Below, piece after piece: positions 7,239 to 19,670 of a DNA stretch of 24,291 nucleotides. Below the pieces are notes generated by a model, which made no database searches, was not told where the DNA came from, and saw only the letters and a list, made by a program, of their open reading frames with translations. Numbering within the stretch: the first letter of the stretch is position 1; every line of letters starts with the position of its first letter. The stretch spans positions 1 through 24,291 of IMG/VR virus record IMGVR_UViG_3300033996_001201. One strand, given 5' to 3'. Position numbers and translations under genes: made by a program. The stretch comes from a virus.

Positions 7239-7247
7239 GGGGGATTG

Positions 7248-8297: not shown

Positions 8298-8594
8298 ATG
8301 ACAGAACAAACACAGGTGACACCTCTACAAGCAAGAATTGCTGAAGTGGCACAATACGAGGCAAATATCGCCCTGTATGAAAGCATCTTGCAAACTTTGC
8401 CGACAGAGTGGCCTGAAAGATTATTGGAACACCGAGGTTCAAAGAATCAGCACGACAGCATTGCAGGTGTTGAAAGCGCCGATGTTGAACTGTTGTCAAA
8501 ACTTTGGTACGCAGATGAGTGTTCTAAAGCTATCAAGACAGAAACCTTGGAAATGATCAAATCAAAAGCAATTTTGAATGTGTTGCAGTCTTAA
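8298..8594 (+). CDS. 98-aa protein of unknown function at the end of the tail operon
   Basis: Strong ribosome binding site (AAAAGGAG) before ATG. The protein is helical and charged, with an opening coiled-coil-like region (LQARIAEVAQYEANIALYES), a conserved-looking middle WPERLLEHRG and a second helix pair ELLSKLWYADECSKAI. No domain is recognised. As the last gene of the plus-strand tail operon it may be a fibre assembly factor or fibre-associated protein, but this is position only. It converges on the minus-strand sulfotransferase: the two stop codons overlap (8591-8594) with no terminator between them. Confidence 0.6.
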   Translation: MTEQTQVTPLQARIAEVAQYEANIALYESILQTLPTEWPERLLEHRGSKNQHDSIAGVESADVELLSKLWYADECSKAIKTETLEMIKSKAILNVLQS

Positions 8595-9421
8595 ACAAAA
8601 TCTTTGATCCCATTGGGGAAGATAAAATCTAAGGCGTGACCATATTTTTTGTGTACATATTCGGACAGGATAGATGTATCAGTTTTGCTCGCATCTATCT
8701 TGGGCCGTATTTTGTGCATATTAGGAATGCCAAAAATTTTGCTTTCATTAGGCATTAGAGTCCAACTTAGATTTTCAAACTTGTGTTGGAATGCAGGTAT
8801 ATCAAGGAATTCATAAATGGCTTGAATGACTTTTTCAGGTTTTGATATTAGGTCAGCATAAGCAACAAAATGAAATTTGCCTTGATGTCTTGGATCAAGC
8901 GATGATGCCAATGAATAAATGTTGTTTTCAATATGATGATTGGCAGCCATCATTGCATCACAACGAGCATCATTTTGTGGCCTGAATTGACTCACAGGAT
9001 AATCGGGAACAAATTTATCAATGAAGTTGTCAGGGTTTTTATCAGCCAAATGCACAAAAGATGCAAGGACTTCAAGAATTGGTCTAACAGGACAAATGAT
9101 TTTGACCTTATCGGCAAAGAGTTCTGCAACCTCTATGTTCTCAGCAGTTCCCCAATTGCGATTCTTGTCAATTATGTATGGCTTATCAATGTGTTCATAG
9201 AAGGCATGAGGCAACTTTGCCATGATGTTTTGATAACCTTCAGGGGCAAACCCTGCGTGATAAGACTCTGAAACCTGCGAAGTCTTGTAAAGTGAAAGAA
9301 TCAAAAAACTTGTGTCAGCCGAAGGTGTGACATAAATATCAGGATTTTGATTTAAGATTGCAGAAAGTAGGGTGCTTCCTGACCGTGGGAGTCCTGCCAT
9401 AAAAAAGAAAGTTTTATCCAT
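8591..9421 (-). CDS. PAPS-dependent sulfotransferase
   Basis: A 276-aa protein predicted to transfer sulfate from 3'-phosphoadenosine-5'-phosphosulfate to a hydroxyl or amine acceptor. The N-terminus carries the 5'-phosphosulfate binding loop FMAGLPRSGSTLLSAIL (residues about 7-23). The middle segment ICPVRPILEVLASFVH fits the 3'-phosphate binding region, normally with the pattern R-x-P...S. There is no signal peptide or membrane anchor, so it acts in the host cytoplasm. It is the only minus-strand gene within the late region and has its own leaderless-looking promoter, suggesting independent expression like a moron. A matching donor-making enzyme lies at 18470-19231. The acceptor is unknown: host surface glycan, lipid or a virion component are all possible. 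Confidence 0.82.
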   Translation of the reverse strand: MDKTFFFMAGLPRSGSTLLSAILNQNPDIYVTPSADTSFLILSLYKTSQVSESYHAGFAPEGYQNIMAKLPHAFYEHIDKPYIIDKNRNWGTAENIEVAELFADKVKIICPVRPILEVLASFVHLADKNPDNFIDKFVPDYPVSQFRPQNDARCDAMMAANHHIENNIYSLASSLDPRHQGKFHFVAYADLISKPEKVIQAIYEFLDIPAFQHKFENLSWTLMPNESKIFGIPNMHKIRPKIDASKTDTSILSEYVHKKYGHALDFIFPNGIKDFV

Positions 9422-9427
9422 ATTTTG

Positions 9428-9457
9428 ATTTTAACAGCCAACACCCCCACAAATCAA
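9428..9457 (-). promoter_or_regulatory. Candidate leaderless promoter of the sulfotransferase gene
   Basis: On the minus strand, TTGATT (9457-9452) and TAAAAT (9433-9428) are separated by 18 nt, and the -10 box ends 6 nt before the ATG at 9421. There is no ribosome binding site. This geometry puts the transcription start at or next to the A of ATG, as in the many leaderless actinobacterial transcripts. The -35 box overlaps the ribosome binding site of the divergent plus-strand gene. Confidence 0.5.
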
Positions 9458-9465
9458 GGAGCAAC

Positions 9466-9720
9466 ATGCGAACTTCCCAAGTGACGGTTACAACCTCACC
9501 AACAAAGATCGTTGGAACAGGCAACATCATTCGTGAAGTTCACATTCACAATGTTCATGGAGACATCTACATCGGCGGAGATAACACAGTCAGCACCACA
9601 AATGGTGTCCTTGTTGAAACAAAGGCACACGATGTGATGCACCTACCTGCAACGGCTGAGGTGTGGGCGGTAACGCCAGCCAACACCGCCGTTGTTTATG
9701 TTTTGGAAGTCAATCAATGA
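9466..9720 (+). CDS. Small beta-rich protein, conserved in actinophages, function unknown
   Basis: An 84-aa protein preceded by AAGGAG. It has the pattern V-T-T-S-P-T-K-I-V followed by VHIHNVHGDIYIGGDNTVST and an end with WAVTPANTAVVYVLEVNQ, predicted to be all beta strands. Proteins of this type are frequent in phages of actinobacteria, between tail and lysis genes, and are probably small virion or tail-surface proteins; I know no demonstrated function. Its stop overlaps the ATG of the following membrane protein gene (ATGA), so it begins the lysis cluster transcript. Confidence 0.55.
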   Translation: MRTSQVTVTTSPTKIVGTGNIIREVHIHNVHGDIYIGGDNTVSTTNGVLVETKAHDVMHLPATAEVWAVTPANTAVVYVLEVNQ

Positions 9721-9920
9721 CGGCACAAGATTGGGCTGCTCTCGCCGTTGCGCTCATCACCATTGTTGGAGCATTTGCAACAGCGGTGCGATGGTTGGTC
9801 AAGCATTACTTGGCAGAGTTGAAGCCAAATTCAGGATCAAGTTTGAAAGATTCCGTTGCACGATTGGAGCGACAAGTTGAAGAGATATATCGCATTCTTC
9901 TTACTCGCTCTGACTCTTAG
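9717..9920 (+). CDS. Small membrane protein with coiled coil (holin/spanin-like)
   Basis: A 67-aa protein from the ATG at 9717 that overlaps the previous stop. It has one hydrophobic segment (WAALAVALITIVGAFATAVRWLV, residues about 6-28), then a basic linker and a short coiled coil (LKDSVARLERQVEEIYRIL). The N-out or N-in topology is not obvious. The arrangement recalls small actinophage holin-associated proteins, and also the Rz-type i-spanin plan (one membrane helix plus coiled coil). The last 44 bases are overlapped in another frame by the lipoprotein gene that follows, a layout resembling Rz/Rz1. Function is likely in lysis, from context. Confidence 0.6.
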   Translation: MTAQDWAALAVALITIVGAFATAVRWLVKHYLAELKPNSGSSLKDSVARLERQVEEIYRILLTRSDS

Positions 9921-10065
9921 CGGTTGCAGTTATCAAGGTTGGGTTCGCTACCCATGCCAAGAGTTTGAAAATTGGGGAAAACCCGAATGCAACAAACCGC
10001 AATGCGAAATCACAGGAACCTGCACCTCTGACCTACTTCCGGAGATATTCGATGAAACGCCGTGA
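9877..10065 (+). CDS. Small phage lipoprotein overlapping the upstream membrane gene
   Basis: A 62-aa protein starting at TTG 9877, seven nt after GGAG (9866-9869). That start gives a compact lipoprotein signal peptide, MKRYIAFFLLALTLSGCS, with lipobox L-S-G-C at residues 14-17; a TTG at 9856 would place charged residues ahead of it and has no ribosome binding site. The mature part is small and Cys-rich (RYPCQEFENWGKPECNKPQC, then ITGTC). It should be exported and anchored to the outer face of the cytoplasmic membrane. It overlaps the coiled-coil membrane protein gene by 44 nt. Possible roles are lysis (o-spanin-like) or superinfection exclusion; neither is shown. Confidence 0.65.
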   Translation: MKRYIAFFLLALTLSGCSYQGWVRYPCQEFENWGKPECNKPQCEITGTCTSDLLPEIFDETP

Positions 10066-10333
10066 CAGATACACACCCGAAGAATTACACGCTCGCCTGA
10101 TTGTTTCCATTGGCATCATCTTGGCAATCGTCTTTGCAGGATCGGTTTTCTCACTCCTGTGGGCGCTTGTATTTGTAACGCAACCAATGAAGCAAGCACC
10201 CAACGATGCAGCCTTCATTGATCTCGTGGCAACATTGACGGTATTTCTCACAGGAACTTTGGCAGGGATTGTCTCTGCAAATGGATTGAAGTCAAAACCA
10301 AAACAAGGGGAACAAAATGTCAGCACAACTTAA
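10052..10333 (+). CDS. Two-helix membrane protein, candidate holin
   Basis: A 93-aa protein from ATG 10052, with GGAG seven nt upstream. N-terminal basic segment (MKRRDRYTPEELHAR), then a hydrophobic helix (LIVSIGIILAIVFAGSVFSL, extending to about residue 42), a short polar loop with QPMKQAPNDAAF, a second helix (LVATLTVFLTGTLAGIVSA) and a basic tail. Size, two helices and position directly upstream of the endolysin gene fit a class II holin. The 3' end overlaps the endolysin start by 17 nt. Another holin-like gene follows the endolysin, so which of the small membrane proteins forms the hole is undecided. Confidence 0.6.
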   Translation: MKRRDRYTPEELHARLIVSIGIILAIVFAGSVFSLLWALVFVTQPMKQAPNDAAFIDLVATLTVFLTGTLAGIVSANGLKSKPKQGEQNVSTT

Positions 10334-10817
10334 AGCATTTCTTGATGTAGCTCGTGGCGAAGAGGGTTTTATTGAAGGCCCTGCCGATAATCAAACTCAC
10401 TATCAAAAGGCAAACCAACCTTGGTGTGGAGCCTTTGTCAATTGGGTGGCAAAGCAAGCAGGGGTGAAGATTCCCAACTGCACCTTTACCCCGTCAGGGG
10501 CAGAGGCGTTCCAAGCCAAGGGCAAGTGGCAAGATGCCGAAAGCGCCACGCCCGCGCCAGGTGACATCGTGTTCTTTGATTTCCCATCAGATAATCTTGA
10601 CCGGATTTCTCATGTTGGCATCGTCTTGCAGGTTCGAGATGATGGAACTGTCGTGACAATCGAGGGCAACACGGCACCTGATAAGAAGGGCGATCAACGC
10701 AACGGTGGGCAAGTATGCCGTAAGGTTCGCGCCTATAAGAAGAAAAATCGTGGGAAATTACAACCATCCTTGCCCGTGTTCATCGTTGGATTCGGCAAGC
10801 CTACTTTTAAGGAGTAA
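10317..10817 (+). CDS. CHAP-domain endolysin
   Basis: A 166-aa protein that is essentially one CHAP (Cys/His amidohydrolase-peptidase) domain, predicted to cut peptide or amide bonds of host peptidoglycan. Catalytic residues are visible as C37 (QPWCGAFVNWVAKQAG), H99 (RISHVGIVLQV) and the third-position E116/N118 (IEGNTA). There is no signal peptide, so release through a holin is expected. There is no separate cell-wall binding domain, although the basic tail (RAYKKKNRGKLQ) may help wall binding. ATG follows AAGGGGAAC. It sits between two small membrane protein genes in the lysis cluster. Confidence 0.85.
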   Translation: MSAQLKAFLDVARGEEGFIEGPADNQTHYQKANQPWCGAFVNWVAKQAGVKIPNCTFTPSGAEAFQAKGKWQDAESATPAPGDIVFFDFPSDNLDRISHVGIVLQVRDDGTVVTIEGNTAPDKKGDQRNGGQVCRKVRAYKKKNRGKLQPSLPVFIVGFGKPTFKE

Positions 10818-10819
10818 AG

Positions 10820-11017
10820 ATGTTTGATGCAGTCAAAATTCAAGCAATTGTTATGACCTACCTTCGGGCAGGTGCAGCGGCAGTTTTAGCTCTCTATCTT
10901 GCAAACCCAAATCAGCCTTTGAAGAACTACCTTTTTGCAGGTGTGGCAGCAGTTGCCGGCCCTGTAATGAAGGCACTTGATCCAAAGGCAACAGAATTTG
11001 GCAAAGGTAGCAAGTAA
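10820..11017 (+). CDS. Small membrane protein, holin-like
   Basis: A 65-aa protein with AAGGAG before ATG, two nt after the endolysin stop. It has two hydrophobic segments (YLRAGAAAVLALYLA and YLFAGVAAVAGPVMKAL) and a hydrophilic tail DPKATEFGKGSK. Proteins of this form (MTYLRAGAA...GPV.K.LDP...FG.GSK) are widespread next to endolysins in actinophages and are often called holins. It is probably part of the holin system together with the 93-aa protein, but no experiment is known to me. Confidence 0.6.
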   Translation: MFDAVKIQAIVMTYLRAGAAAVLALYLANPNQPLKNYLFAGVAAVAGPVMKALDPKATEFGKGSK

Positions 11018-11020
11018 AAA

Positions 11021-11290
11021 ATGAACCGGGGGGAAATCTTAGATGAGGCCAAGCGCCTCACACATACTGATCGTCAAAAAAACTATGGATCACCGTATGT
11101 AAATCACAAGCGCATCGCCGACCTGTGGAGTGTGTATCTTGAAACCGAGATAACACCTTCACAGGTCGCTTTGTGTTTATGCCTTGTCAAAATAGCTCGA
11201 TTGATTGAGACACCTGACCACGAGGATTCATTTGTAGACTTGGCAGCATATGCCGCAATAGCAGGGGAGATTGAATCACAATGGAAATGA
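11021..11290 (+). CDS. DUF6378 family protein
   Basis: An 89-aa helical protein with the hallmark ILDEAKRLTHTDRQKNYGSP, then NHKRIADLWSVYLETEITPS and IARLIETPDHEDSFVDLAAY, matching a family of small phage proteins known as DUF6378. The spacing of acidic and His residues in helices (E...H...D/E...D) resembles all-alpha NTP pyrophosphohydrolases, but no such activity is established, so this is a hint only. ATG is preceded by GGGGG-free AAAAA-rich sequence, so initiation may rely on coupling to the previous gene 3 nt upstream. The stop overlaps the start of the glycosyltransferase. Confidence 0.75.
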   Translation: MNRGEILDEAKRLTHTDRQKNYGSPYVNHKRIADLWSVYLETEITPSQVALCLCLVKIARLIETPDHEDSFVDLAAYAAIAGEIESQWK

Positions 11291-11949
11291 TCACACTTGT
11301 TCCAACCCGTGGCAGACCACAAAATGCCGTTGAATTACTTGCTGCTCACGATGACCTGTCATCTGCATCACAGTTGCTTTTTATTGTTGATTATGACGAT
11401 CCCAAGGGTGATGAATATGTCTTTGAATTAGGCGATGACTATGTAATCACCTGCAATAATGAGTCACGCGGTATGGCAAAGCCACTCAATTATGTGGCGC
11501 ACAAATATGCCGACAAATACAAGTATTTCGCCTTCTTGGGCGATGACCACCGCCCACGCACCGCCGATTGGGATGCAAAACTGATCGAGGCGTTGCAACA
11601 GGCACCGTCACTTGCCTACGGCAATGATCTACTTCAAGGCAAGCGCCTTCCAACGATGGTTGCGATGACATCAGATATTGTCAGCGCCCTTCAAGGAATG
11701 GTGCCGCCGAATATGAAGCATCTCTACCTTGACAACTTTTGGAAGAAATTGGGCGAGGATTTAGGCTCTCTGCATTATCTTGATGATGTCATTGTTGAGC
11801 ATATGCATCCCGTGGCAGGAAAGGCAGCGTGGGATGAAGGGTATGTGGCAGTCAATGCACAAGAAGTTTATTCTGCCGATGCTCTTGCGTACAAGAATTA
11901 CATTGAATCCGAAGCCTATGAAGTCTTGCTGAAGAAACTGCGCCGATGA
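11281..11949 (+). CDS. GT-A type glycosyltransferase (family 2-like)
   Basis: A 222-aa protein with the N-terminal pattern ITLVPTRGRPQNAVELLAAH typical of GT-A glycosyltransferases. It has an acidic Rossmann-like strand (LLFIVDYDDPKGDEY), the segment ESRGMAKPLNYVAHKYADKY, and the metal/nucleotide binding motif FLGDDHRPRTADWD around residues 81-95. It likely transfers a sugar from an NDP-sugar to a glycan or protein in the cytoplasm; no membrane segment is present. Start at ATG 11281 overlaps the DUF6378 stop; ATG 11287 is possible. The gene overlaps the next glycosyltransferase by four nt (ATGA), so both belong to one glycan-modifying cassette with the epimerase. Confidence 0.78.
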   Translation: MEMITLVPTRGRPQNAVELLAAHDDLSSASQLLFIVDYDDPKGDEYVFELGDDYVITCNNESRGMAKPLNYVAHKYADKYKYFAFLGDDHRPRTADWDAKLIEALQQAPSLAYGNDLLQGKRLPTMVAMTSDIVSALQGMVPPNMKHLYLDNFWKKLGEDLGSLHYLDDVIVEHMHPVAGKAAWDEGYVAVNAQEVYSADALAYKNYIESEAYEVLLKKLRR

Positions 11950-12671
11950 AACAGGCAATTGCATTCTCACTTTATGGGTCAGATTTGCGGTACTCGGTTG
12001 GTGCAATCAAGAACGCCATCATCGCCCAACAGATTTTGGATGATGAATACGAGTTGGTCTTTTTCGTAGGGGCATCGGTTCCACCCTGGGTGATTTCAAC
12101 CTTGAATCTGTTCAGCAATGTGCGAATCATTCAAACAGATGCACCCGAAGATCACACCGCCAAGTTGTGGCGCTTTCTTGCTTGTGAGCTAGATTACGAC
12201 ATCGTTGCCTTCCGCGATGCCGATGCTCGCCTGTCTTTGCGTGAGTTGAACGCCCACGAGCAGTTCCTTGAGTCAGGTCTTGATGCTCACATCATGAAAG
12301 ACCACCCAACGGGTCACAATTACCCCATCAATGCAGGTATGTTCACAGTTCGGTGCGCCTTATTTAAGGACATCCGTGCCCTGATTGAGTCGGTTGAGAT
12401 TTCAGACTATTACACCCAAGATCAAGACTTCTTGCGAAATATGATTTACCCAAGAATCCAATTTTCCTGCTTTGTCCATGACGAGTTCTATGACACCCAA
12501 GTTGAGGGCAAGTCAGTTCGCAAGCCTTACCTGCTCGACCCTGCCAACCCCATCAGTCACATTGGCGCAGCCCTTGATGAGAATGATAAGTTCATCTTTG
12601 CTGTGGATCAACAAAAGTCTGTCTTGTTGACGGGTGCTGATAGATACGAATATGAATGGGAGATGGAATGA
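11946..12671 (+). CDS. Second glycosyltransferase, GT-A fold (GT8-like)
   Basis: A 241-aa protein beginning MKQAIAFSLYGSDLRYSVGA, a typical sugar-binding start. It carries a YDIVAFRDADARLS segment whose D-A-D is the expected D-x-D metal site, followed by MKDHPTGHNYPINAGMFTVR, in which the P-I-N-A-G-M-F element resembles the acceptor-side motif of GT8-like enzymes. An additional VHDEFYDTQ and H-I-G-A region may complete the active site. No transmembrane helix is seen. It is coupled to its neighbours by four-base overlaps on both sides, suggesting equal dosage with the first glycosyltransferase and the epimerase. Confidence 0.75.
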   Translation: MKQAIAFSLYGSDLRYSVGAIKNAIIAQQILDDEYELVFFVGASVPPWVISTLNLFSNVRIIQTDAPEDHTAKLWRFLACELDYDIVAFRDADARLSLRELNAHEQFLESGLDAHIMKDHPTGHNYPINAGMFTVRCALFKDIRALIESVEISDYYTQDQDFLRNMIYPRIQFSCFVHDEFYDTQVEGKSVRKPYLLDPANPISHIGAALDENDKFIFAVDQQKSVLLTGADRYEYEWEME

Positions 12672-13531
12672 AAATTCTTATCACAGGTGATGCAGGATTT
12701 GTCGGGCGTGCTTTTCACCGCGCACTTGATGGCAAGAATCACGAGATTACAGGCATTGATTTGGTCAATGGCAAAGAGGTTCGACACTTCTTTGCAACAG
12801 ATTCGACTCAGTTTGATGTGGTGATTCATCTCGCGGCAATTGTCGGTGGGCGAATGACCATTGAGGGAAACCCATTGTCAGTTGCCTCTGACCTTGCCAT
12901 TGATGCAGACATGTTCCAATGGGCACTCCGTACTCGCCCGAAGCACATTGTCTATTTCTCCTCATCTGCTGCATATCCAATCTTCTTGCAGAAACTTGCC
13001 TACCAACAAAAACTGCGTGAAATTGACATCAATCTTGAACACATCCGAACACCTGACTTCACCTATGGTTGGGCAAAGTTATCGGGTGAAATGCTCGCCT
13101 CTTATGCAAGAGCTGAAGGTTTGCGAGTAAGTGTTCTTCGACCATTTAGCGGATACGGTTCAGATCAAGCACTTGACTACCCATTCCCATCCTTTATTGA
13201 ACGAGCAAAGCGCAAGGCAGACCCATTTGAAGTGTGGGGCGCAGGAACTCAGGTTCGCGATTTTGTTCACATTGATGATGTGGTTCAGGCAACCTTTGCA
13301 GCCGTGACCAACAATGTTTCCACCATGAACATCTGTTCAGGCAGACCAACCTCATTCATTGAGTTGGCAGAGATGGTGATGTTGCAAGCAGGTTATCTTG
13401 CACCTATAAAGACCAATCTTGATGCACCTGTGGGTGTTGAATACCGAGTGGGCGATCCATCTCGGATGTTGGCAGTTTATGAACCAAAAATCTCCCTCGA
13501 AGAAGGCATTGCTCGCGCACTTGCCTCATAA
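12668..13531 (+). CDS. NAD-dependent sugar epimerase/dehydratase (extended SDR)
   Basis: A 287-aa protein with the Rossmann cofactor motif MKILITGDAGFVGRAFHRAL (G-x-x-G-x-x-G), a VVIHLAAIVGG strand, the catalytic Ser region VYFSSSAAYP and the Y-x-x-x-K pair in FTYGWAKLSGEMLA, as in UDP-glucose 4-epimerases and GDP-fucose synthases. LRPFSGYGSDQ, FEVWGAGTQVRDFVHIDDVV and NICSGRP are standard sugar-nucleotide epimerase blocks. It probably makes the NDP-sugar used by the two upstream glycosyltransferases. I chose ATG 12668 because it overlaps the previous stop and starts right at the cofactor strand. Exact substrate is not predictable. The transcript ends at the terminator directly after it. Confidence 0.85.
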   Translation: MKILITGDAGFVGRAFHRALDGKNHEITGIDLVNGKEVRHFFATDSTQFDVVIHLAAIVGGRMTIEGNPLSVASDLAIDADMFQWALRTRPKHIVYFSSSAAYPIFLQKLAYQQKLREIDINLEHIRTPDFTYGWAKLSGEMLASYARAEGLRVSVLRPFSGYGSDQALDYPFPSFIERAKRKADPFEVWGAGTQVRDFVHIDDVVQATFAAVTNNVSTMNICSGRPTSFIELAEMVMLQAGYLAPIKTNLDAPVGVEYRVGDPSRMLAVYEPKISLEEGIARALAS

Positions 13532-13578
13532 AGAAATCCCCTTCACCATTGGTCGGTCATGGTGAAGGGGATTTCTTT
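13530..13578. terminator. Strong bidirectional intrinsic terminator
   Basis: A perfect 20-bp inverted repeat (13530-13549 with 13559-13578) with a 9-nt loop. The arms read AAAGAAATCCCCTTCACCAT and its complement, with a GC-rich core flanked by A on the left and T on the right (ATTTCTTT then GTCATTTTC), so it can work in both directions. It separates the plus-strand glycosylation cassette from the convergent minus-strand operon ending at 13586. Confidence 0.92.
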
Positions 13579-13585
13579 GTCATTT

Positions 13586-13831
13586 TCACAGAATGTCTGA
13601 TGGGTATTTGATTCCTTTCAGTTCCTTCTTGATGTGATGATTGATTGCAAGTGCGATGAAGATTTTTGGAACTTCAACTTCAGCTTTTGATCGCTTGGGC
13701 AGTAAAAGAAGCGGTATCAATACCCAAAAGCCAAAGAAAAAGGCAGAGATTGACCACATCGCAAATCTTCTTCCACGACCCATTGCAATGAGTGCCACAA
13801 TGGGAACTGCAAGAACATTCATCCAACTCAT
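13586..13831 (-). CDS. Two-helix membrane protein, last gene of the minus-strand operon
   Basis: An 81-aa protein with two hydrophobic segments (VLAVPIVALIAMG and FAMWSISAFFFGFWVLIPLL, continuing LLLP) and a basic cytoplasmic-type tail (KRSKAEVEVP, then INHHIKKELKG). I chose ATG 13831, whose start overlaps the primase-polymerase stop (ATGA) and which has GGAG five nt upstream; a GTG at 13837 would lie inside that ribosome binding site. No family is recognised. It is co-transcribed with the primase-polymerase and ribbon-helix-helix genes, and could tie a replication or immunity function to the membrane, but that is speculation. Confidence 0.65.
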   Translation of the reverse strand: MSWMNVLAVPIVALIAMGRGRRFAMWSISAFFFGFWVLIPLLLLPKRSKAEVEVPKIFIALAINHHIKKELKGIKYPSDIL

Positions 13832-14286
13832 ACCCACTCCATCATCGGTGCAGGTTGAATGTCTTTGACTACTTGATAGAACTTGCCTGACTCGTGCAAT
13901 GACCCTGCACCCACAACATATCCATTGTGCTTGATGTCAACGCCTTCACGAAGTTTGCCCTTGAATTTAGCATCGGCAGGGGCGGTGTAATACAGATGCA
14001 AGCCATCGCCTGTTGCGACTGTGAATGTGTCAAGGTTGAGACCATCGGTGGTTCCGCCATTGCGGAAGTCAATGTCAAAGACAACCAATGATGAAGGCGC
14101 ACATGCAATGCCAATGTTGAGCATCGGAGCGCGAGTGAACCATTTCTCGATCTCTGCAATGTCAGTTGTTGCAGATTTGTACCCATTCTTTGCAATGGGA
14201 AAGAAGGGTGTCTTTTGATAAGGGGCAACAGGCAGGATGTGCCAACCCTTTTCGGCAAAGGCAATGGCGGTGTCGGCTTTTGTCAT
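13828..14286 (-). CDS. Standalone bifunctional DNA primase/polymerase domain (PrimPol)
   Basis: A 152-aa protein that is just a PrimPol (AEP superfamily) domain, able in principle to synthesise primers and extend DNA. It opens with AIAFAEKGWHILPVAPYQKT, has the catalytic metal motif LVVFDIDFRNGG (D71, D73), the GLHLYY motif with H97, and a third region DIKHNGYVVGAGSLHESGKF. The domain is complete; no helicase or zinc domain follows. A second PrimPol, fused to a helicase, lies on the plus strand at 19667-21739 but has E-x-E in place of D-x-D. The gene overlaps both neighbours by four bases (ATGA). It may supply priming or repair synthesis, or prime a different origin. Confidence 0.85.
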   Translation of the reverse strand: MTKADTAIAFAEKGWHILPVAPYQKTPFFPIAKNGYKSATTDIAEIEKWFTRAPMLNIGIACAPSSLVVFDIDFRNGGTTDGLNLDTFTVATGDGLHLYYTAPADAKFKGKLREGVDIKHNGYVVGAGSLHESGKFYQVVKDIQPAPMMEWV

Positions 14287-14414
14287 TTGATGTACTCCTT
14301 CAAGAAATCAACAATGACTTCAGAAACAGACTTGCCTTCTGACTTTGCCTTTGCCATCGCCCGTGCCCATAGTTGGTCACTCACGCGAACTGATCTGACT
14401 TTCTTGCCTACCAT
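14283..14414 (-). CDS. Ribbon-helix-helix (Arc/CopG-like) DNA-binding protein
   Basis: A 43-aa protein, MVGKKVRSVRVSDQLWARAM, continuing AKAKSEGKSVSEVIVDFLKEYIK. The order of one beta strand (KVRSVRVS), helix (DQLWARAMAKAKSEG), turn with S-V-S-E, and helix (VIVDFLKEYI) is the ribbon-helix-helix plan used by dimeric repressors such as Arc and CopG. It stops by overlapping the PrimPol ATG (ATGA), and its own start follows the previous stop directly (TAAATG), without a good ribosome binding site, so translation is probably coupled. It may be the autoregulator of this operon or of the divergent region at 14777-14938. Confidence 0.75.
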   Translation of the reverse strand: MVGKKVRSVRVSDQLWARAMAKAKSEGKSVSEVIVDFLKEYIK

Positions 14415-14579
14415 TTACAACACCACACATTCGCTCATTGAACCCCAACACCAACCGAGAAACTCTGCATTCGGTGAATCAATACCAACCCACCACAGAT
14501 TTGCAGATATGTGGAAAAGCACATAAACCAAAAACACAATACCGATTGCTCTAACTTGCTTTCCGCGCTTTGTAATCAT
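14415..14579 (-). CDS. Small single-helix membrane protein
   Basis: A 54-aa protein whose ATG shares a base with the stop of the gene before it (TAATG). It has a basic start (MITKRGKQVR), one hydrophobic helix (AIGIVFLVYVLFHISANLWW) and a C-terminal part GIDSPNAEFLGWCWGSMSEC. No family is recognised. The clean overlap on both sides, and the position in a tight operon, support that it is real. Such small membrane proteins in an early operon can affect host division or superinfection, but nothing in the sequence shows which. Confidence 0.6.
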   Translation of the reverse strand: MITKRGKQVRAIGIVFLVYVLFHISANLWWVGIDSPNAEFLGWCWGSMSECVVL

Positions 14580-14776
14580 TATGCACCGACCTTCGTGCGG
14601 AGTGCAGCCATTGCATCAAAAGCATTTTTGAAAGATTGTTCAACAATTTGAAGGCTGTAATACTTTTCACCTTCATTTTTTTGAACAACAATCCAACCTG
14701 CACCAACAATGTTGCGAACTGAATACTTTTCATCAAGAGTGATGTAATTGTTTGAAGCTACTTTTACAAACTGCAT
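14579..14776 (-). CDS. 65-aa protein, first gene of the minus-strand operon
   Basis: Start ATG at 14776 with CGGAG seven nt upstream. The protein MQFVKVASNNYITLDEKYSV, then RNIVGAGWIVVQKNEGEKYY, and a helical end NAFDAMAALRTKVGA suggests a small beta-sheet plus helix fold (SSBs or regulators of this size exist). No family recognised. A good promoter (14846-14819) lies upstream, so this gene probably starts the five-gene transcript running left to the terminator at 13530-13578. Confidence 0.6.
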   Translation of the reverse strand: MQFVKVASNNYITLDEKYSVRNIVGAGWIVVQKNEGEKYYSLQIVEQSFKNAFDAMAALRTKVGA

Positions 14777-14818
14777 TTTGAACTCCGATCTGTGGGAGCC
14801 GTTCCCCCTACAAGAAGA

Positions 14819-14846
14819 ACTTTACGCTCATCCATACGAATGTCAA
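14819..14846 (-). promoter_or_regulatory. Promoter of the minus-strand operon
   Basis: On the minus strand a perfect TTGACA (14846-14841) is followed after 16 nt by TAAAGT (14824-14819, four of six to TATAAT). Transcription would start near 14812, giving a leader of about 36 nt with a ribosome binding site before ATG 14776. It is the best sigma-70-like promoter in the divergent region. Confidence 0.6.
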
Positions 14847-14884
14847 TACACGACACAAAGGAGTTTTGGCGAGTCTTATTGCCC

Positions 14885-14893
14885 TGTGGATAA
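14885..14893 (-). other. Perfect DnaA box in the divergent intergenic region
   Basis: TGTGGATAA on the plus strand is TTATCCACA on the minus strand, the classical DnaA-box consensus. It lies between the leftward and rightward operons. A second identical box is at 21724-21732 and looser copies (TTTTCCACA) at 14510-14518 and 21912-21920. Two exact 9-mers is more than chance would give in a window this size (about 0.2 expected). Confidence 0.35.
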
Positions 14894-14938
14894 GTCTCAT
14901 GCGACCATTAAGCCATCTCAAAGGAAAGGGGATAAATC

Positions 14939-15058
14939 ATGGCTTGGATGCTATTAGTGGGCGCAATCGCCGTCACAGGGCTTGTGTGGGGGCTTCTAGT
15001 CCTTGAGGACAGGTTCACCGCACAGATTACACACTCAGAGGGCGGGTGGGGCTATTGA
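14939..15058 (+). CDS. 39-aa single-helix membrane protein
   Basis: Starts at ATG 14939 after AAAGGGGATAAATC, a good ribosome binding site. The protein MAWMLLVGAIAVTGLVWGLL, then VLEDRFTAQITHSEGGWGY, has one hydrophobic helix over nearly its first half and a short polar tail. It is the first gene of the long rightward operon and overlaps the next gene by 13 nt. No family recognised; a small membrane protein expressed early could influence host membrane or superinfection, but this is guesswork. Confidence 0.6.
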   Translation: MAWMLLVGAIAVTGLVWGLLVLEDRFTAQITHSEGGWGY

Positions 15059-15405
15059 TCAACCGCGACCCTTTATTTTCAGTTCACAACTCCCTGAATG
15101 GGGATGTGGCAATTTATCTTGAAGAGCGCGATGCAGCTCTTGATTTGGTCGAGGATGTCCTGGCAGCAGTTCCAATGGCAGATTTGGAAGCCATTGAAAA
15201 CCTCATGATCACAGATTTGAAGTCATCGGATGCAGCACGGATGATGGATAAGGCGAGGTCAGCCGTTCCTGATCTAGCCATCAAACTCGCAAGCATTAGC
15301 GAAAGCGAGGCACTTACTTTGGCTGAACAACTCATCACCGCCGTGAAGTATGCACGCGCCATGCGCTCGCAGCCTCTCACGACAAAATTGGAGTTGGTGA
15401 AGTAA
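15046..15405 (+). CDS. Helical protein of unknown function
   Basis: A 119-aa protein from GTG 15046, or 116 aa from TTG 15055, which overlaps the previous stop as TTGA; the choice is uncertain. It is almost wholly helical and acidic, with YLEERDAALDLVEDVLAAVP, IENLMITDLKSSDAARMMDK and SISESEALTLAEQLITAVKY. No enzyme motif or DNA-binding motif is visible. It precedes the resolvase-like nuclease by one nt, so it may act in the same early program. Confidence 0.55.
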   Translation: MGLLINRDPLFSVHNSLNGDVAIYLEERDAALDLVEDVLAAVPMADLEAIENLMITDLKSSDAARMMDKARSAVPDLAIKLASISESEALTLAEQLITAVKYARAMRSQPLTTKLELVK

Positions 15406-15406
15406 G

Positions 15407-15757
15407 TTGGCAAATCCCAATGGTCGCAAGGGCGCACTCTTTGAAACTTCAGTAATGAAGTGGCTTAGAGATCGCGGGGTCAGCGCCGAGCGACTAACAA
15501 AGGCAGGAAGCAAAGATGAAGGTGACATTGTTTGTGTCGTTGCAAATAAGACTTATATCTTTGAGTTGAAAAACCGCAAGGCGATCACACTTCCTGCCTT
15601 TTGGGATGAAGCCATCACAGAAGCAAAGAATTATGCTGTAGCTCGTGGATTGAAACAAACTCCACCTGCTTATGTCATAATAAAGCGCCGAAATGCCGGC
15701 ATTGAAAAGTCATGGGTCGTTCAGGATTTAGAACAATGGCTTGGAACCAGGGATTGA
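15407..15757 (+). CDS. PD-(D/E)XK nuclease, Holliday-junction-resolvase-like
   Basis: A 116-aa protein from TTG 15407, two bases after the previous stop. It has the small-resolvase pattern: GRKGALFETSVMKWL with E13, then LTKAGSKDEGDIVC with D40, and YIFELKNRKA with E53 and K55, which together form the PD-(D/E)XK site, followed by a helix with DEAITEAKNYAVARG. Proteins of this pattern are annotated as Holliday junction resolvases in actinophages. It probably resolves branched replication or recombination DNA. Another nuclease (endonuclease VII-like, 23570-23944) with a similar expected role is also present. Confidence 0.72.
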   Translation: MANPNGRKGALFETSVMKWLRDRGVSAERLTKAGSKDEGDIVCVVANKTYIFELKNRKAITLPAFWDEAITEAKNYAVARGLKQTPPAYVIIKRRNAGIEKSWVVQDLEQWLGTRD

Positions 15758-16206
15758 ATTTCACATACTTCTTCCCAACTTTACCTTTGTTGTTACAGGC
15801 AAAATGCCGTGACATCGAAAACCCCGACATTTTCTTTCCTGAAGGAAAGGTCGAAGAGGCAAACAGTCTCCCAATCGCTCGCAGTATTTGCGAAGGTTGT
15901 ATAGAACGAAAGGAGTGCTTGGAATACGCACTTGCAGAAAACATCCCATTCGGGATTTGGGCAGGAACGACACCGAAGGAGCGTGGAGTTTATGTTCAAA
16001 GAAGGCGCAGGAAGTTCGGCAAAAATAACGCCGAAACCATTCGCAGACTTCATTTGCAAGGAAGAACACCAAAAGAAATCTCAGTTGCCGTGAATGTTGA
16101 CCTTTCCTATGTTGGACAGGTTTTACGCAAGGCAGGGGTGAAATCAGAGGGAGAACTCCAATCACAACTCAAAACAAGAAACTCATCAGGGGGATTGCAA
16201 TCATGA
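15736..16206 (+). CDS. WhiB-family regulator with a C-terminal HTH extension
   Basis: A 156-aa protein from ATG 15736 with CAGGA nine nt upstream; ATG 15712 and TTG 15754 are alternatives. The four Fe-S ligands are clear at C24 (QAKCRDIEN), C52, C55 and C61 (SICEGCIERKECLEY), together with the FFPEG element and the G-I-W turn in PFGIWAGTTPKERG, all diagnostic of WhiB. WhiB proteins bind RNA polymerase sigma factor in Actinobacteria. A basic linker (QRRRRKFGK) leads to a separate helix-turn-helix-like part, AETIRRLHLQGRTPKEISVA, then LSYVGQVLRKAGV, which could bind DNA directly. It overlaps its neighbours at both ends and probably controls host or phage promoters. Confidence 0.88.
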   Translation: MAWNQGLNFTYFFPTLPLLLQAKCRDIENPDIFFPEGKVEEANSLPIARSICEGCIERKECLEYALAENIPFGIWAGTTPKERGVYVQRRRRKFGKNNAETIRRLHLQGRTPKEISVAVNVDLSYVGQVLRKAGVKSEGELQSQLKTRNSSGGLQS

Positions 16207-16589
16207 TCAGCGTTAGCGGTTTGACATCAGTTGTTGTCAATGCTGCATTTGCGCCTCAAGTTGCCGTACCTGCTTCAATTATTTATACAGAGCGACCACC
16301 GCTTGCCCAGGTTAATCCGAAGGAAGTGGCTCGTGATTTGCTTACAACTAAGCAATACAAATGTTTTTCTCAGTTGATTGGAAAAGAATCAGCTTGGAAA
16401 GATGCAAAAAATCCAACGAGTTCAGCACAAGGCATCGGCCAATTGTTGTCCTCAACCTATCGCAACCTCGGAATGGAACATTCTGAGTCTCGTGTGTCAC
16501 AACTTGTGGCCACGCTCGCCTACATCCACAGGCGGCATGTGAATCCATGCATCGCGTGGTCTCACTTCCAAAAATTCAATTGGTACTAA
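16203..16589 (+). CDS. Lytic transglycosylase-like protein with export signal
   Basis: A 128-aa protein from ATG 16203 (AGGGGGATTGCAATC before it; ATGA overlap with the WhiB stop). The N-terminus has a hydrophobic segment (LTSVVVNAAFAPQVAVPA) that may be an export signal. The lysozyme-like core shows the catalytic Glu in LIGKESAWKDAKNPTSSAQG (K-E-S-A-W) followed by GIGQLLSSTYRNLG, and a final AYIHRRHVNPCIAWSHF, as in SLT/resuscitation-like transglycosylases. It would cleave peptidoglycan glycan strands. It lies in the early region, far from the CHAP endolysin, so it may act in wall remodelling rather than final lysis. Confidence 0.72.
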   Translation: MISVSGLTSVVVNAAFAPQVAVPASIIYTERPPLAQVNPKEVARDLLTTKQYKCFSQLIGKESAWKDAKNPTSSAQGIGQLLSSTYRNLGMEHSESRVSQLVATLAYIHRRHVNPCIAWSHFQKFNWY

Positions 16590-16610
16590 CAAAGATTCGG
16601 GGGAATTTAA

Positions 16611-16928
16611 GTGACCATTGAAATCGAACATCAGCGTGTTGTCTTTGACGATGACATCGCTTCATGGCTCAAGCAATACACAGATGCATTGAGTCGCATC
16701 AAAGAATGGCAAGAAGTTGCCGACATTGCTCGTTCGCACTTGGAAAGTGCAATGGGTACGGCAGAGGTGGCAATGTATAACGGAAATGAAGTTGTCCGTT
16801 GGTCATTTGTCGAATCCAAGCGGATTGATGTCAAGAAGGCACGAGAAATCCTGCCTGATCAAGTCATTCAGCTTTTAGAAGTTCCAACAACTTCACGCAG
16901 GTTCACAATTGTCGAGAGTGGTGAGTGA
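16611..16928 (+). CDS. Small helical protein upstream of the Cas4-like nuclease
   Basis: A 105-aa protein from GTG 16611 with GGGGGAA upstream. It has a long coiled-coil-like helix (LKQYTDALSRIKEWQEVADI), then a beta part with YNGNEVVRWSFVESKRIDVK and VPTTSRRFTIVE. The end portion (V-x-W...K-x-F/I-D...S-R-R-F) is what is often seen in proteins paired with YqaJ/RecB-type phage nucleases. It may be an accessory or substrate-presenting partner of the nuclease encoded just after it. No catalytic motif is present. Confidence 0.6.
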   Translation: MTIEIEHQRVVFDDDIASWLKQYTDALSRIKEWQEVADIARSHLESAMGTAEVAMYNGNEVVRWSFVESKRIDVKKAREILPDQVIQLLEVPTTSRRFTIVESGE

Positions 16929-17008
16929 TGAGCATTATCACGCCCATTGCACCACTTCTTGATGAACCACCTTTCACACCATATGAAGATGACGAGGATG
17001 AGGACTAA
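16928..17008 (+). CDS. 26-aa acidic microprotein
   Basis: A short frame MSIITPIAPLLDEPPFTPYE ending DDEDED, whose ATG overlaps the previous stop (TGATG) and whose stop is followed directly by the ATG of the nuclease gene. The acidic, Pro-rich tail resembles the disordered tails of single-strand-binding proteins. Its packing supports translation. It may bind the nuclease or DNA-binding proteins, but function is unknown. Confidence 0.5.
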   Translation: MSIITPIAPLLDEPPFTPYEDDEDED

Positions 17009-17746
17009 ATGACCTTTGTTGCTCCACATAAGCCGTCAAAGGTGATTGCCGATGAACTTGCCGCGATTATCGTCAAGGCAGGTCAATGGTCTCCACGGTC
17101 AAAGCAAATTGCCATCGGCCCATCAGAAATCGGGCACGAATGCTCACGCCGTCTTGCATACAAACTCCTTGATTGGGAAAAGATCAATGAGGGTGGCAAT
17201 GGATCGTGGGCAGCCCAGGTTGGCACGGCAATTCATGCTTACTTGGCAGAGGTCTTTGGCAAACTCGATGGCTATGAAGTGGAGCAACGAGTGACCATTC
17301 GTTCAGGTCTATCAGGCACGATTGACTTATTTGATGTCAACCGAGGCATTGTGATGGATTGGAAAACCACATCTGCAAAGCAAATTGAAACACGCAGAAA
17401 AGAAGGCGCGAGCAAACAACAGATCATTCAGACTCAGCTTTATGGTTACGGCAAGGCGCAACAAGGCGTTGCCGTCAACCATGTGGCACTTGTGTATCTG
17501 CCAACATCGGGGTCACTCGATGAGATGCATATGGAGATGTATGAATATGATGAGCAGGTCGCACTCGATGCACTTGCTCGCATTGATAGTCTTTATGGAC
17601 TGCTTTCAACAGTTGATGTTGAAGCAAATCCTGCAATGTGGTCACTTATTCCGGCAAAGAGTGATCGCCTCTGTAACTATTGCCCATATTTTTTGCCTTA
17701 CAGTAAAGATTTAAGTAAGGCGTGCAACGGAGACACCGATGTGTGA
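17009..17746 (+). CDS. Cas4/RecB-like Fe-S PD-(D/E)XK exonuclease
   Basis: A 245-aa nuclease. The active site is visible as H76 (TAIHAY), D106 (LSGTIDLFDV), D117-x-K119 (IVMDWKTTS) and Q143/Y145 (IQTQLYGYG). Four Cys residues, C45 (GHECSRRLAY) at the front and C222, C225 and C239 (LCNYCPYFLP, KACNG) at the end, match the 4Fe-4S site of Cas4 and AddB-type nucleases. It probably resects DNA ends for recombination, with the SSB-like protein two genes downstream. There is no CRISPR array in the window. It follows the acidic microprotein with no gap and overlaps the next Cys-rich small gene by eight nt. Confidence 0.85.
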   Translation: MTFVAPHKPSKVIADELAAIIVKAGQWSPRSKQIAIGPSEIGHECSRRLAYKLLDWEKINEGGNGSWAAQVGTAIHAYLAEVFGKLDGYEVEQRVTIRSGLSGTIDLFDVNRGIVMDWKTTSAKQIETRRKEGASKQQIIQTQLYGYGKAQQGVAVNHVALVYLPTSGSLDEMHMEMYEYDEQVALDALARIDSLYGLLSTVDVEANPAMWSLIPAKSDRLCNYCPYFLPYSKDLSKACNGDTDV

Positions 17747-17870
17747 ATGTAATTCATGCAGTTGCGGTCTCATACCGACAAAGGCACTTTCAGATGGTGT
17801 CAAAGAATGGGTGGAAAGTAATTCACCGCAAGAGTTAGACAACAACAACAACGAAGAGGGGGAACAGTAA
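17739..17870 (+). CDS. 43-aa Cys-rich small protein
   Basis: Starts at ATG 17739 inside the end of the nuclease gene and its stop overlaps the next ATG (TAATG). The N-terminus MCECNSCSCG has a C-x-C-x-x-C-x-C cluster suited to binding a metal, followed by GLIPTKALSDGVKEWVESNS and an Asn/Glu-rich end. A GAGGGGG near its 3' end is the ribosome binding site for the following SSB-like gene. Function is unknown; a metal-binding partner of the nuclease or an anti-host protein are both possible. Confidence 0.55.
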   Translation: MCECNSCSCGLIPTKALSDGVKEWVESNSPQELDNNNNEEGEQ

Positions 17871-18334
17871 TGTTCACAGCACCAACGCAAGGTGGCGGTG
17901 ATTCAGTCAAGGTCGCAGACTTGGCAGGAAAGCTGCTTATCATCACACCGACTGAACACAAGCGAGAAATCACAACGGTTCATGGGGTCACAGATGCAGT
18001 CGAGGTCAACATTGTTGATTTAGATGGCAACGAAACACACAACAATATCTTGTTCTTTAATATCGCATTGAAGAATGCACTCAAGAATAAGATCAATCAG
18101 AAAGTTTTGGCACGAATCGGACAAGGTTCGGCAAAAGCCGGAAAATCGGCACCATGGATTCTCATTGATGCCACAGGCAATCCTGATGACTTGGCAAAGG
18201 CAAATGCATACATCGGCGGTGGCAATGCGAATGCACCTGCCACGGCGAGCGCACCTGCCGCGCCAATTGACACAAACAACCTGCCACCTGAAGTGCAAGC
18301 ATTGCTTTCACAACTAGGAGCAAAGGCAGTATAA
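17870..18334 (+). CDS. Single-stranded-DNA-binding-like (OB-fold) protein
   Basis: A 154-aa protein with a beta-rich N-terminal two-thirds (VADLAGKLLIITPTEHKREI, then AVEVNIVDLDGN and ILFFNIALKNALKNKI) and an Ala/Pro-rich disordered C-terminal part (residues about 120-140) that ends PPEVQALLSQLGAKAV. Its size, fold order and location after a recombination nuclease fit a phage ssDNA-binding protein of the kind common in actinophages, although there is no canonical acidic SSB tail. The strong ribosome binding site GAGGGGGAAC suggests high expression, as expected for an SSB. Assignment is by context and general pattern. Confidence 0.5.
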   Translation: MFTAPTQGGGDSVKVADLAGKLLIITPTEHKREITTVHGVTDAVEVNIVDLDGNETHNNILFFNIALKNALKNKINQKVLARIGQGSAKAGKSAPWILIDATGNPDDLAKANAYIGGGNANAPATASAPAAPIDTNNLPPEVQALLSQLGAKAV

Positions 18335-18339
18335 GAAAC

Positions 18340-18375
18340 TTCCTGTGGCTTTTGCCTTTCCTTATGCCACGGGAA
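18340..18375 (+). ncRNA. Intergenic RNA hairpin upstream of the tRNA-like element
   Basis: TTCCTGTGGC (18340-18349) can pair with GCCACGGGAA (18366-18375) over ten positions with one G-U pair and a 16-nt pyrimidine-rich loop (TTTTGCCTTTCCTTAT). It starts 5 nt after the stop of the SSB-like gene. It lacks a T run, so it is not a classical terminator; it may stabilise or process the mRNA, or belong to a larger folded RNA with the element at 18390-18437. Confidence 0.4.
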
Positions 18376-18412
18376 CGAGGGATGGGATTTGCGCTTTTGG
18401 GGAAGGGCGCAG

Positions 18413-18437
18413 GTGAGTTCGACTCTCACCACCTCAC
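18413..18437 (+). other. tRNA 3'-end-like element (T-arm), candidate attP or tRNA relic
   Basis: GTGAG (18413-18417), loop TTCGACT (18418-18424) and CTCAC (18425-18429) form a 5-bp stem and 7-nt loop exactly like a tRNA T-arm, then CACCTCA would be the 3' acceptor strand. The matching 5' acceptor strand (TGAGGTG) and D-arm are not found upstream, so no complete tRNA is encoded. Phage integration sites often contain just this part of a host tRNA gene, which the phage copy replaces. No integrase is in the window. Confidence 0.4.
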
Positions 18438-18469
18438 GCAATAATTACAACGAACGGGGGAACAAGTAG

Positions 18470-19231
18470 ATGATCATTCAAATAATCGGATTGCCTGGAT
18501 CGGGCAAAACGGAATTGGCAAAAGCACTCAAAGAAAGAATAAATGCCATTCATCTCAATGCAGATGAAGTCCGAGCAACTGTCAATTCTGATTTGGGGTT
18601 TAGCCTTGAAGATAGAATTGAACAGGCAAGACGAATGGGTGAAATGTCAAGGCTCATTGCAAAGCAAGGGGTTGCATCAGTCATTGCAGATTTTGTTTGC
18701 CCAACTGATGTGACTCGCGCAGCTTTTGGCAAGCCTGACATTTTGGTGTTTATGGACACGATTTCACAAAGCAGGTTTGAAGATACCAACAGAATTTTTG
18801 ATAGTCCTGAGAATGCAGATGTTTGTTTTGTCAATCACGACCTTGATGCAAATGAAAAGGCTTCCTTCATCATTGCCAAGTTCAATCTTCATGATTGGTC
18901 TGCTCCAACAACTTTGATGCTTGGAAGATACCAACCCTGGCATGAAGGTCATCATGCTCTTTACAATGAGGCGTGCAAGAGAACAGATCAAGTCCTTTTG
19001 GGTGTTCGCAATACATACAAGACAAGTGAAAAAGACCCGCTTCAATTTGATCAGGTAAAAGAATACATTGCCAAAGATGATGTGATGGTTGATGCAATGG
19101 TTTTGCGACTTCCTAACATCACCAACATTGTTTATGGTCGAGATGTTGGATACAAGATTGAACAAGTAAAGTTGGGGGATGAAATTGAAGCTGTTAGTGC
19201 TACTCAAAAGCGTAAAGAAATGGGTATTTGA
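18470..19231 (+). CDS. APS kinase (CysC-like) fused to a nucleotidyltransferase domain
   Basis: A 253-aa two-domain protein. The first about 140 residues are an adenylylsulfate kinase: P-loop GLPGSGKT (7-14), NADEVRATVNSDLGFSLEDR and ARRMGEMSRLIAKQG, IADFVCPTDVTR, which are CysC signatures; it makes PAPS from APS and ATP. From about residue 145 a HxGH nucleotidyltransferase follows (LMLGRYQPWHEGHHALYNEA) with the end SATQKRKEMGI as the phosphate-binding motif. That domain, of about 105 residues, is more like NMN/cytidylyl-transferases than full ATP sulfurylase, which is much longer. The order kinase then nucleotidyltransferase parallels animal PAPS synthase. The likely partner is the phage sulfotransferase at 8591-9421. 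ATG follows GGGGGAACAAGTAG. Confidence 0.82.
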   Translation: MIIQIIGLPGSGKTELAKALKERINAIHLNADEVRATVNSDLGFSLEDRIEQARRMGEMSRLIAKQGVASVIADFVCPTDVTRAAFGKPDILVFMDTISQSRFEDTNRIFDSPENADVCFVNHDLDANEKASFIIAKFNLHDWSAPTTLMLGRYQPWHEGHHALYNEACKRTDQVLLGVRNTYKTSEKDPLQFDQVKEYIAKDDVMVDAMVLRLPNITNIVYGRDVGYKIEQVKLGDEIEAVSATQKRKEMGI

Positions 19232-19293
19232 TTTCTTTTTTATCAACAACATTGCCGACAAAGAGGTTCAACTTTTATTGAGACAAGAACAAG

Positions 19294-19503
19294 ATGAAAG
19301 TCAGTAAAAGTCGCTCATTTGTCAAGGCATTGTCCTATCGCATTTTTGGAACGCTTTCTTCATGGGCTGTTGTTTTTGTAATTACAGGCGAGGGAACTTT
19401 GGCAGTTTTGATTGCTTTTTGGGAAACAGTAATCAAGATTTTTATTTATTACGCACATGAGCGTGCTTGGAACTTGGTAAGTTGGGGCAGAAGGGGAAAG
19501 TAA
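19294..19503 (+). CDS. DUF2061 membrane protein
   Basis: A 69-aa protein with the DUF2061 pattern SRSFVKALSYRIFGTLSSWA, then a helix VVFVITGEGTLAVLIAFWET and VIKIFIYYAHERAWNLVSWG. Two hydrophobic segments flank a short loop. In several bacteria DUF2061 genes sit among sulfate activation genes (cysC, cysD, cysN), and here it follows the APS kinase fusion, 62 nt downstream. It may move or sense sulfate or assist PAPS use, but no biochemical role is established. The ribosome binding site (ACAAGAACAAG) is weak. Its stop overlaps the next ATG. Confidence 0.8.
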   Translation: MKVSKSRSFVKALSYRIFGTLSSWAVVFVITGEGTLAVLIAFWETVIKIFIYYAHERAWNLVSWGRRGK

Positions 19504-19670
19504 TGCCATTCTATGAATTCACCTGCGATTGTGGACACATCGCTGAAGTATTTTTTGAAATGGATGATGAAAAGCGAATCATCTGTGAAGGTTGCAAGAA
19601 GAAGTTGATGCAACGCAAGTATTCTCTTGGTGGTGCAATCTTCAAAGGTGACGGTTGGGGAAGTAAGTGA
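19503..19670 (+). CDS. FmdB-family zinc ribbon protein
   Basis: A 55-aa protein, MPFYEFTCDCGHIAEVFFEM followed by ICEGCKKKLMQRKYSLGG. The C-x-C-G then C-x-x-C spacing (C8, C10, C29, C32) and the P-x-Y-E-F/Y start are those of FmdB-type regulatory zinc ribbons. It could bind RNA, DNA or a protein partner. The ATG overlaps the DUF2061 stop (TAATG) and its stop overlaps the GTG of the helicase gene. Phage-encoded FmdB proteins are common, function unknown; they may be transcription or ribosome-associated factors. Confidence 0.78.
   Translation: MPFYEFTCDCGHIAEVFFEMDDEKRIICEGCKKKLMQRKYSLGGAIFKGDGWGSK

Follow-up and report, generated by a model that had tools for sequence, protein, structure and literature searches.

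Animal 3′-phosphoadenosine 5′-phosphosulfate (PAPS) synthases carry an adenosine 5′-phosphosulfate (APS) kinase domain first and an adenylyltransferase domain second. Sulfate activation is generally attributed to two types of enzyme, Sat and CysDN. Here we analyzed a record of 24,291 nt from a virus of freshwater bacteria (IMGVR_UViG_3300033996_001201; this whole stretch is called the window), which encodes a fusion of a kinase and a nucleotidyltransferase (NT). The 253-aa fusion is most probably a minimal bifunctional PAPS synthase whose NT domain would act as a non-canonical ATP sulfurylase outside the Sat family; we infer both activities from what was directly observed, namely the genes, their fold and family assignments, the operons in which they lie, gene fusions and patterns of co-occurrence. 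No smaller PAPS synthase would then be known to us. A preliminary description of the window had named a sulfotransferase, the kinase-NT fusion and a DUF2061 gene, and all three open reading frames (ORFs) were recovered with their families confirmed:

8591-9421, minus strand: PAPS-dependent-type sulfotransferase, 276 aa (Sulfotransfer_3, E = 5e-17; Sulfotransfer_1, E = 8e-15; phrog_27463, E = 6e-70)
18470-19231, plus strand: putative PAPS synthase, the kinase-nucleotidyltransferase fusion, 253 aa (Pfam and PHROG matches, alignment, AlphaFold2 model, gene context)
18470-18892, plus strand: APS-kinase-like P-loop domain of the fusion, residues ~1-141 (APS_kinase over cut-off, Foldseek, invariant residues)
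18893-19228, plus strand: compact HxGH adenylyltransferase (NT) domain of the fusion, residues 142-253 (CTP_transf_like, model, context of homologues)
19294-19503, plus strand: DUF2061 small membrane protein (PF09834, E = 8e-16)

The fusion resembles animal PAPSS1/2 in its kinase-first domain order, its kinase fold and the proposed overall reaction, but differs in its length (less than half), its non-Sat adenylyltransferase and the lack of a match to the PUA-like domain. Like CysDN(C) or Sat plus CysC, the kinase-NT pair is found in the sulfate-reduction operon and beside sulfotransferases, whereas it comes without a CysD-like or GTPase subunit, and its HxGH domain of ~110-130 aa has a profile unlike that of Sat. 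Published gene clusters for sulfated capsules contain both cysNDC and sulfotransferase genes (PMC11641403; PMC11766843). The full-length phage family phrog_10255 contains the fusion and has relatives in isolated phages, but it is labelled only as kinase or hypothetical, with neither a pathway nor partner genes assigned. A description of this enzyme was not found in searches of the literature on DUF2061 in phages, SAR86 sulfotransferases or new ATP sulfurylase families.

The kinase domain matched APS_kinase (PF01583) over residues 2-85 (E = 3e-15, 56.9 bits against a cut-off of 21.1), and the fusion matched phrog_10255, "kinase", over its full length (E = 1e-64). The AlphaFold2 model of the fusion reached a predicted local distance difference test score (pLDDT) of 89.8 and a predicted template modelling score of 0.83, and its top PDB matches in Foldseek were APS kinases, which places the domain in the APS kinase fold. 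GLPGSGK, D32, R35, F44 and R49 were invariant in a 27-sequence alignment; R35, F44 and R49, lying in DxDxxR, DLxF and EDR and aligned to 3uie, are presumably the APS-contacting Arg, Phe and Arg.

The second domain barely exceeded the CTP_transf_like cut-off of 21 (22.0 bits, E = 2e-4, residues 150-188). It carries GRYQPWHEGH, a conserved R180, YGRDVGY and SATxxR, and GRxQPxHxGH and SATxxR were invariant or nearly so in 29 sequences, stand-alone NT proteins included. The NT domain alone was modelled with a pLDDT of 90.7 and adopted the fold of phosphopantetheine (PPAT), nicotinamide mononucleotide (NMN) and glycerol-3-phosphate nucleotidyltransferases (Z ~10), although the Foldseek E-values were weak (best 1.2e-3). 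We considered a true Sat domain, but profile similarity stops at ISxTxxR and ATP sulfurylases were absent among the 50 structural matches listed; the Sat profile (PF01747) did not match the window protein and gave sub-threshold matches to two homologues. The fold therefore sets the chemistry, nucleotidyl transfer, and leaves the acceptor unset. The gene context of homologues points to sulfate as the probable acceptor.

Cellular relatives came from targeted genome searches and from a survey that took a single genome for each species. In a small alphaproteobacterial order, five of six genomes (G153 and G226-G229) harbor the kinase and NT as two overlapping genes, which are the last in an operon in all five. 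The operon runs in the order tetrapyrrole methylase, CysI (NIR_SIR), CysH (PAPS_reduct), DUF2061, kinase and NT; Pfam confirmed this content for L237, and in L241 the contig end cuts the methylase end. The pair thus occupies the site where sulfate activation by CysD/CysN/CysC would be expected. All five CysH proteins carry CC..RK and C.PC, which we take to mark the iron-sulfur APS-reductase type, able to use APS. CysD was absent from these five draft genomes, the weak matches in G227 and G228 falling at the CysH gene, and Sat was present only in G153.

The two domains are also split into overlapping genes in SAR86, with a kinase of ~135 aa and an NT of ~130 aa. Among 121 genomes of this order, the NT was present in 59, Sulfotransfer_3 in 65 and both in 56 (Fisher p = 6e-21, uncorrected for shared ancestry). 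In 23 of the 59 carriers, 547-742 bp separate the end of the sulfotransferase gene from the NT gene downstream on the same strand, leaving space for a kinase gene, and the kinase was seen there where the interval was read (e.g. L242, L243 and L245). Classical ATP sulfurylases were found in only two of the 121 genomes: CysD over cut-off in one and Sat in another. The genome with CysD (G096) has a sulfotransferase and no NT, and its CysD clusters with CysN-like, GmhA-like and Wzz-like genes; here one sulfate-activation system looks to have been replaced by the other. In a Rhizobium sp., a single 555-aa ORF combines Sulfotransfer_2, APS_kinase and CTP_transf_like.

The fusion has relatives in at least 592 viral stretches, so the gene in the window is not a chance observation. 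The 80 nearest share 80-100% identity and come from contigs of ~4-118 kb; the protein of Stenotrophomonas phage DLP_6 led to a second, more divergent set, and a search seeded with that of Stenotrophomonas phage Suzuki returned no matches in viral contigs. With a broad query set, 30 of 161 viral loci showed a sulfotransferase gene close to the fusion. Co-occurrence with sulfotransferases in related phages, which the preliminary description had proposed to look for, was therefore found, as it was in SAR86 (56 of 59 carriers). Pfam distinguished two kinds of these enzymes, Sulfotransfer_3 (in two distinct sequence groups) and Sulfotransfer_2. Phage fusion genes also occur directly behind sulfotransferase genes: the two are adjacent in 11 loci, and Sulfotransfer_2 lies ~0.55 kb upstream in five more, with an aspartyl/asparaginyl hydroxylase gene in between in L007; several of these loci belong to near-identical phages, so the independent cases are fewer. 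Sulfotransferases were enriched around the fusion (29 of 160 loci) relative to endolysin-anchored control loci (one of 80; p = 5e-5), a rough comparison since flank lengths and lineages differ; none of the control loci contained the fusion. Restricting the query to homologues of the window sulfotransferase gave 4 of 82 fusion loci, a misleadingly low figure because other sulfotransferase types are used near the fusion. Tryptophan halogenase-like and carbamoyltransferase-like genes (recognized by eye) and aspartyl hydroxylase genes also recur in the neighborhood (e.g. L039:11024-12577, L031:16382-17815 and L007:1791-2351).

DUF2061 accompanies the pair in phages too. In the window, its gene (58.7 bits against a cut-off of 23.1) begins 62 bp after the fusion, and in 100 of the 161 viral loci the fusion is followed on its own strand by a DUF2061 gene within 400 bp. 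Two gene fusions tie this family to sulfate activation: the CysN-like protein of G211 carries DUF2061 at its C-terminus, and a CysN-CysC-like protein of G186 joins DUF2061 and APS_kinase in a single reading frame. The window DUF2061 is 34-45% identical to the CysN/CysNC-fused and CysH-operon types and 18-28% identical to those from unrelated contexts. The family as a whole is thus not specific to sulfate; judged from sequence, the subtype of the window appears to be.

The preliminary description had suggested that the kinase and NT make PAPS, with the NT as a minimal analogue of ATP sulfurylase. This idea gains support from the CysI-CysH-DUF2061 operons, the gene order and co-occurrence in SAR86, the Rhizobium fusion, the phage neighbors and the fusions of DUF2061 to CysN and CysN-CysC. 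In the mechanism we propose, the C-terminal HxGH domain would move AMP from ATP onto sulfate, yielding APS and pyrophosphate, and the N-terminal domain would phosphorylate the 3′-OH of APS to give PAPS. DUF2061 would serve the same step, perhaps by supplying sulfate or by anchoring the enzyme to the membrane. The resulting PAPS would then feed phage sulfotransferases, in the window probably the one at 8591-9421, which would sulfate a molecule of the host surface or the virion. More broadly, the NT is likely to represent a third ATP sulfurylase class beside Sat and CysDN: an HxGH adenylyltransferase of ~110-130 residues, closer to NMN adenylyltransferases than to Sat, that has spread across hundreds of phages. 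Its partners would be an APS kinase of reduced length, which is fused to it in phages and encoded by a separate gene in SAR86 and other marine-type bacteria, and often DUF2061; together they would make PAPS for both sulfate reduction and sulfation.

Several observations weigh against this proposal. The fusion kinase failed the curated apsK equivalog TIGR00455 (60.2 against 138.7 bits), and its APS_kinase match ends at residue 85. When the NT domain was aligned by hhalign with a two-sequence Sat alignment, the probability was 5%, with similarity confined to ISxTxxR. No sulfotransferase was seen in the available DNA of 131 of the 161 viral loci. The NT lacks an adjacent kinase in L098, L102 and G013; the first two are Woeseiaceae, with NT genes at L098:8001-8387 and L102:8004-8390. 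Sat is present in G153 and G013, and CysD in the Rhizobium; the absences reported above are weakened by the draft state of the genomes. An iron-responsive DUF2061 gene is known in Caulobacter (PMC3751524). The closest profile to the NT domain is that of the archaeal NMN adenylyltransferase 1f9a (E = 4e-10), and in Casjensviridae a NADAR gene abuts the fusion, a hint of NAD/ADP-ribose metabolism. The preliminary description had called for comparison with Sat and NMN adenylyltransferases, taking a kinship with enzymes for unrelated substrates as evidence against its view; likeness to Sat failed and the nearest family is of that kind, so the result counts in part against it.

As side observations on Sat, a 717-aa ORF of the SAR86 genome G013 (L367:1951-4101) joins pyruvate kinase (PF00224), PUA_2 and ATP-sulfurylase, and in G153 (L257) the Sat gene is directly followed by a pyruvate kinase gene. 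Such a linkage might tie sulfate activation to the regeneration of ATP.

The kinship of the NT with NMN adenylyltransferases and the NADAR neighbor would be accommodated if the fusion served NAD salvage or repair against NAD-depleting defence, the kinase converting nicotinamide riboside to NMN and the NT converting NMN to NAD, as in NadR with the order reversed. The NT is nearest to NadM and other NMN adenylyltransferases in sequence and has the same general fold, the NADAR gene lies directly upstream of the fusion, and NAD synthesis genes have been reported from phages, NADAR adjoining NadM or NadV (PMC9503650). The GRxQPxHxGH and ISxTxxR motifs and the HxGH fold are, however, common to other HxGH enzymes too, and the NT fell far short of every curated NMNAT/NadM cut-off (27.5 against 127 bits; 22.8 against 181.2 bits). 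With ~110 aa against 168 in 1f9a, it is ~60 residues shorter and hence lacks a part of that enzyme, and its R180 stands where the aligned NMN adenylyltransferases have G-S. The kinase is an APS kinase in profile and fold, and NAD metabolism would leave the CysI/CysH and sulfotransferase contexts of sulfur metabolism unexplained. We rejected a NadR-like salvage enzyme on this context and kinase type, NADAR neighbors having been seen only in Casjensviridae, and regard a role in NAD metabolism as improbable. In Stenotrophomonas phages Suzuki and Bhz60, the NADAR gene overlaps the fusion start (L084:7553-7996 and L087:2553-2996), which sulfate activation does not explain; Clavibacter phage 33 and Xanthomonas phage AhaSv have same-sized genes at this position.

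The HxGH fold does not reveal the substrate, and kinase-NT genes are often close to polysaccharide genes. The pair might thus activate another small anion or phospho-compound, for example as a nucleotidyl intermediate for a surface glycan, with the sulfotransferase and CysH neighbors being incidental or using an analogue. Sulfate activation is, however, the very step missing from the CysI-CysH operon, and sulfotransferases of two Pfam kinds recur by the pair in unrelated genomes, so we consider another substrate unlikely. Least probable is that only the kinase, the better-matched half, matters, raising host PAPS from host APS beside a degenerate or regulatory NT: some genomes do have a classical ATP sulfurylase, but the NT catalytic motifs are conserved even in stand-alone proteins and hardly any SAR86 carrier has another ATP sulfurylase.

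Returning to the window, the sulfotransferase exceeds both Pfam cut-offs and carries GLPRSGSTLL followed downstream by R-x7-S (VRPILEVLAS), the motifs of PAPS binding. It sits 9 kb from the putative PAPS synthase on the opposite strand. Its use of the PAPS that would be made there is plausible but unproven. Of the further genes suggested as possible members of the same pathway, two have family matches:

11281-11949, plus strand: glycosyltransferase-like protein (phrog_14945, E = 3e-49; Pfam TAGT below cut-off)
12656-13531, plus strand: NAD-dependent nucleotide-sugar epimerase/dehydratase (PF01370, E = 4e-35)

The epimerase was thus recognized correctly, and one of the two glycosyltransferases originally proposed held up; the other, the ORF at 11946-12671, matched none of the families of Pfam, PHROGs or NCBIfam. 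The preliminary description had further placed donor making and sulfate transfer in one phage. The donor-making half is supported by the contexts of homologues. A single sulfated-glycan pathway including the epimerase and glycosyltransferase-like genes is possible but unproven: among ten loci with the closest relatives of the window sulfotransferase, most on short contigs, the fusion was found only in the same phage, giving no independent case.

Elsewhere in the window, a WhiB-like transcription factor gene (15712-16206) suggests an actinobacterial host. Two Prim-Pol N-terminal domains are encoded, one at 19667-21739 on the plus strand and one in a stand-alone 152-aa gene at 13828-14286 on the minus strand. 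Just before the sulfotransferase, 7245-8279 encodes a protein of near-identical repeats (YPWSSGFGTKYANPATLPTGTGW...) with weak beta-propeller matches, which is possibly tail-associated. PADLOC gave only weak matches.

If the kinase and NT indeed form a PAPS synthase, this would explain how small-genome, abundant marine bacteria such as SAR86 and its relatives, which have sulfotransferases and almost no classical ATP sulfurylase, obtain PAPS. A miniature enzyme of this kind would possibly be useful for making sulfated compounds. In addition, phrog_10255 and one DUF2061 subtype would gain a function, and many phages would be seen to bring their own supply of the sulfate donor.

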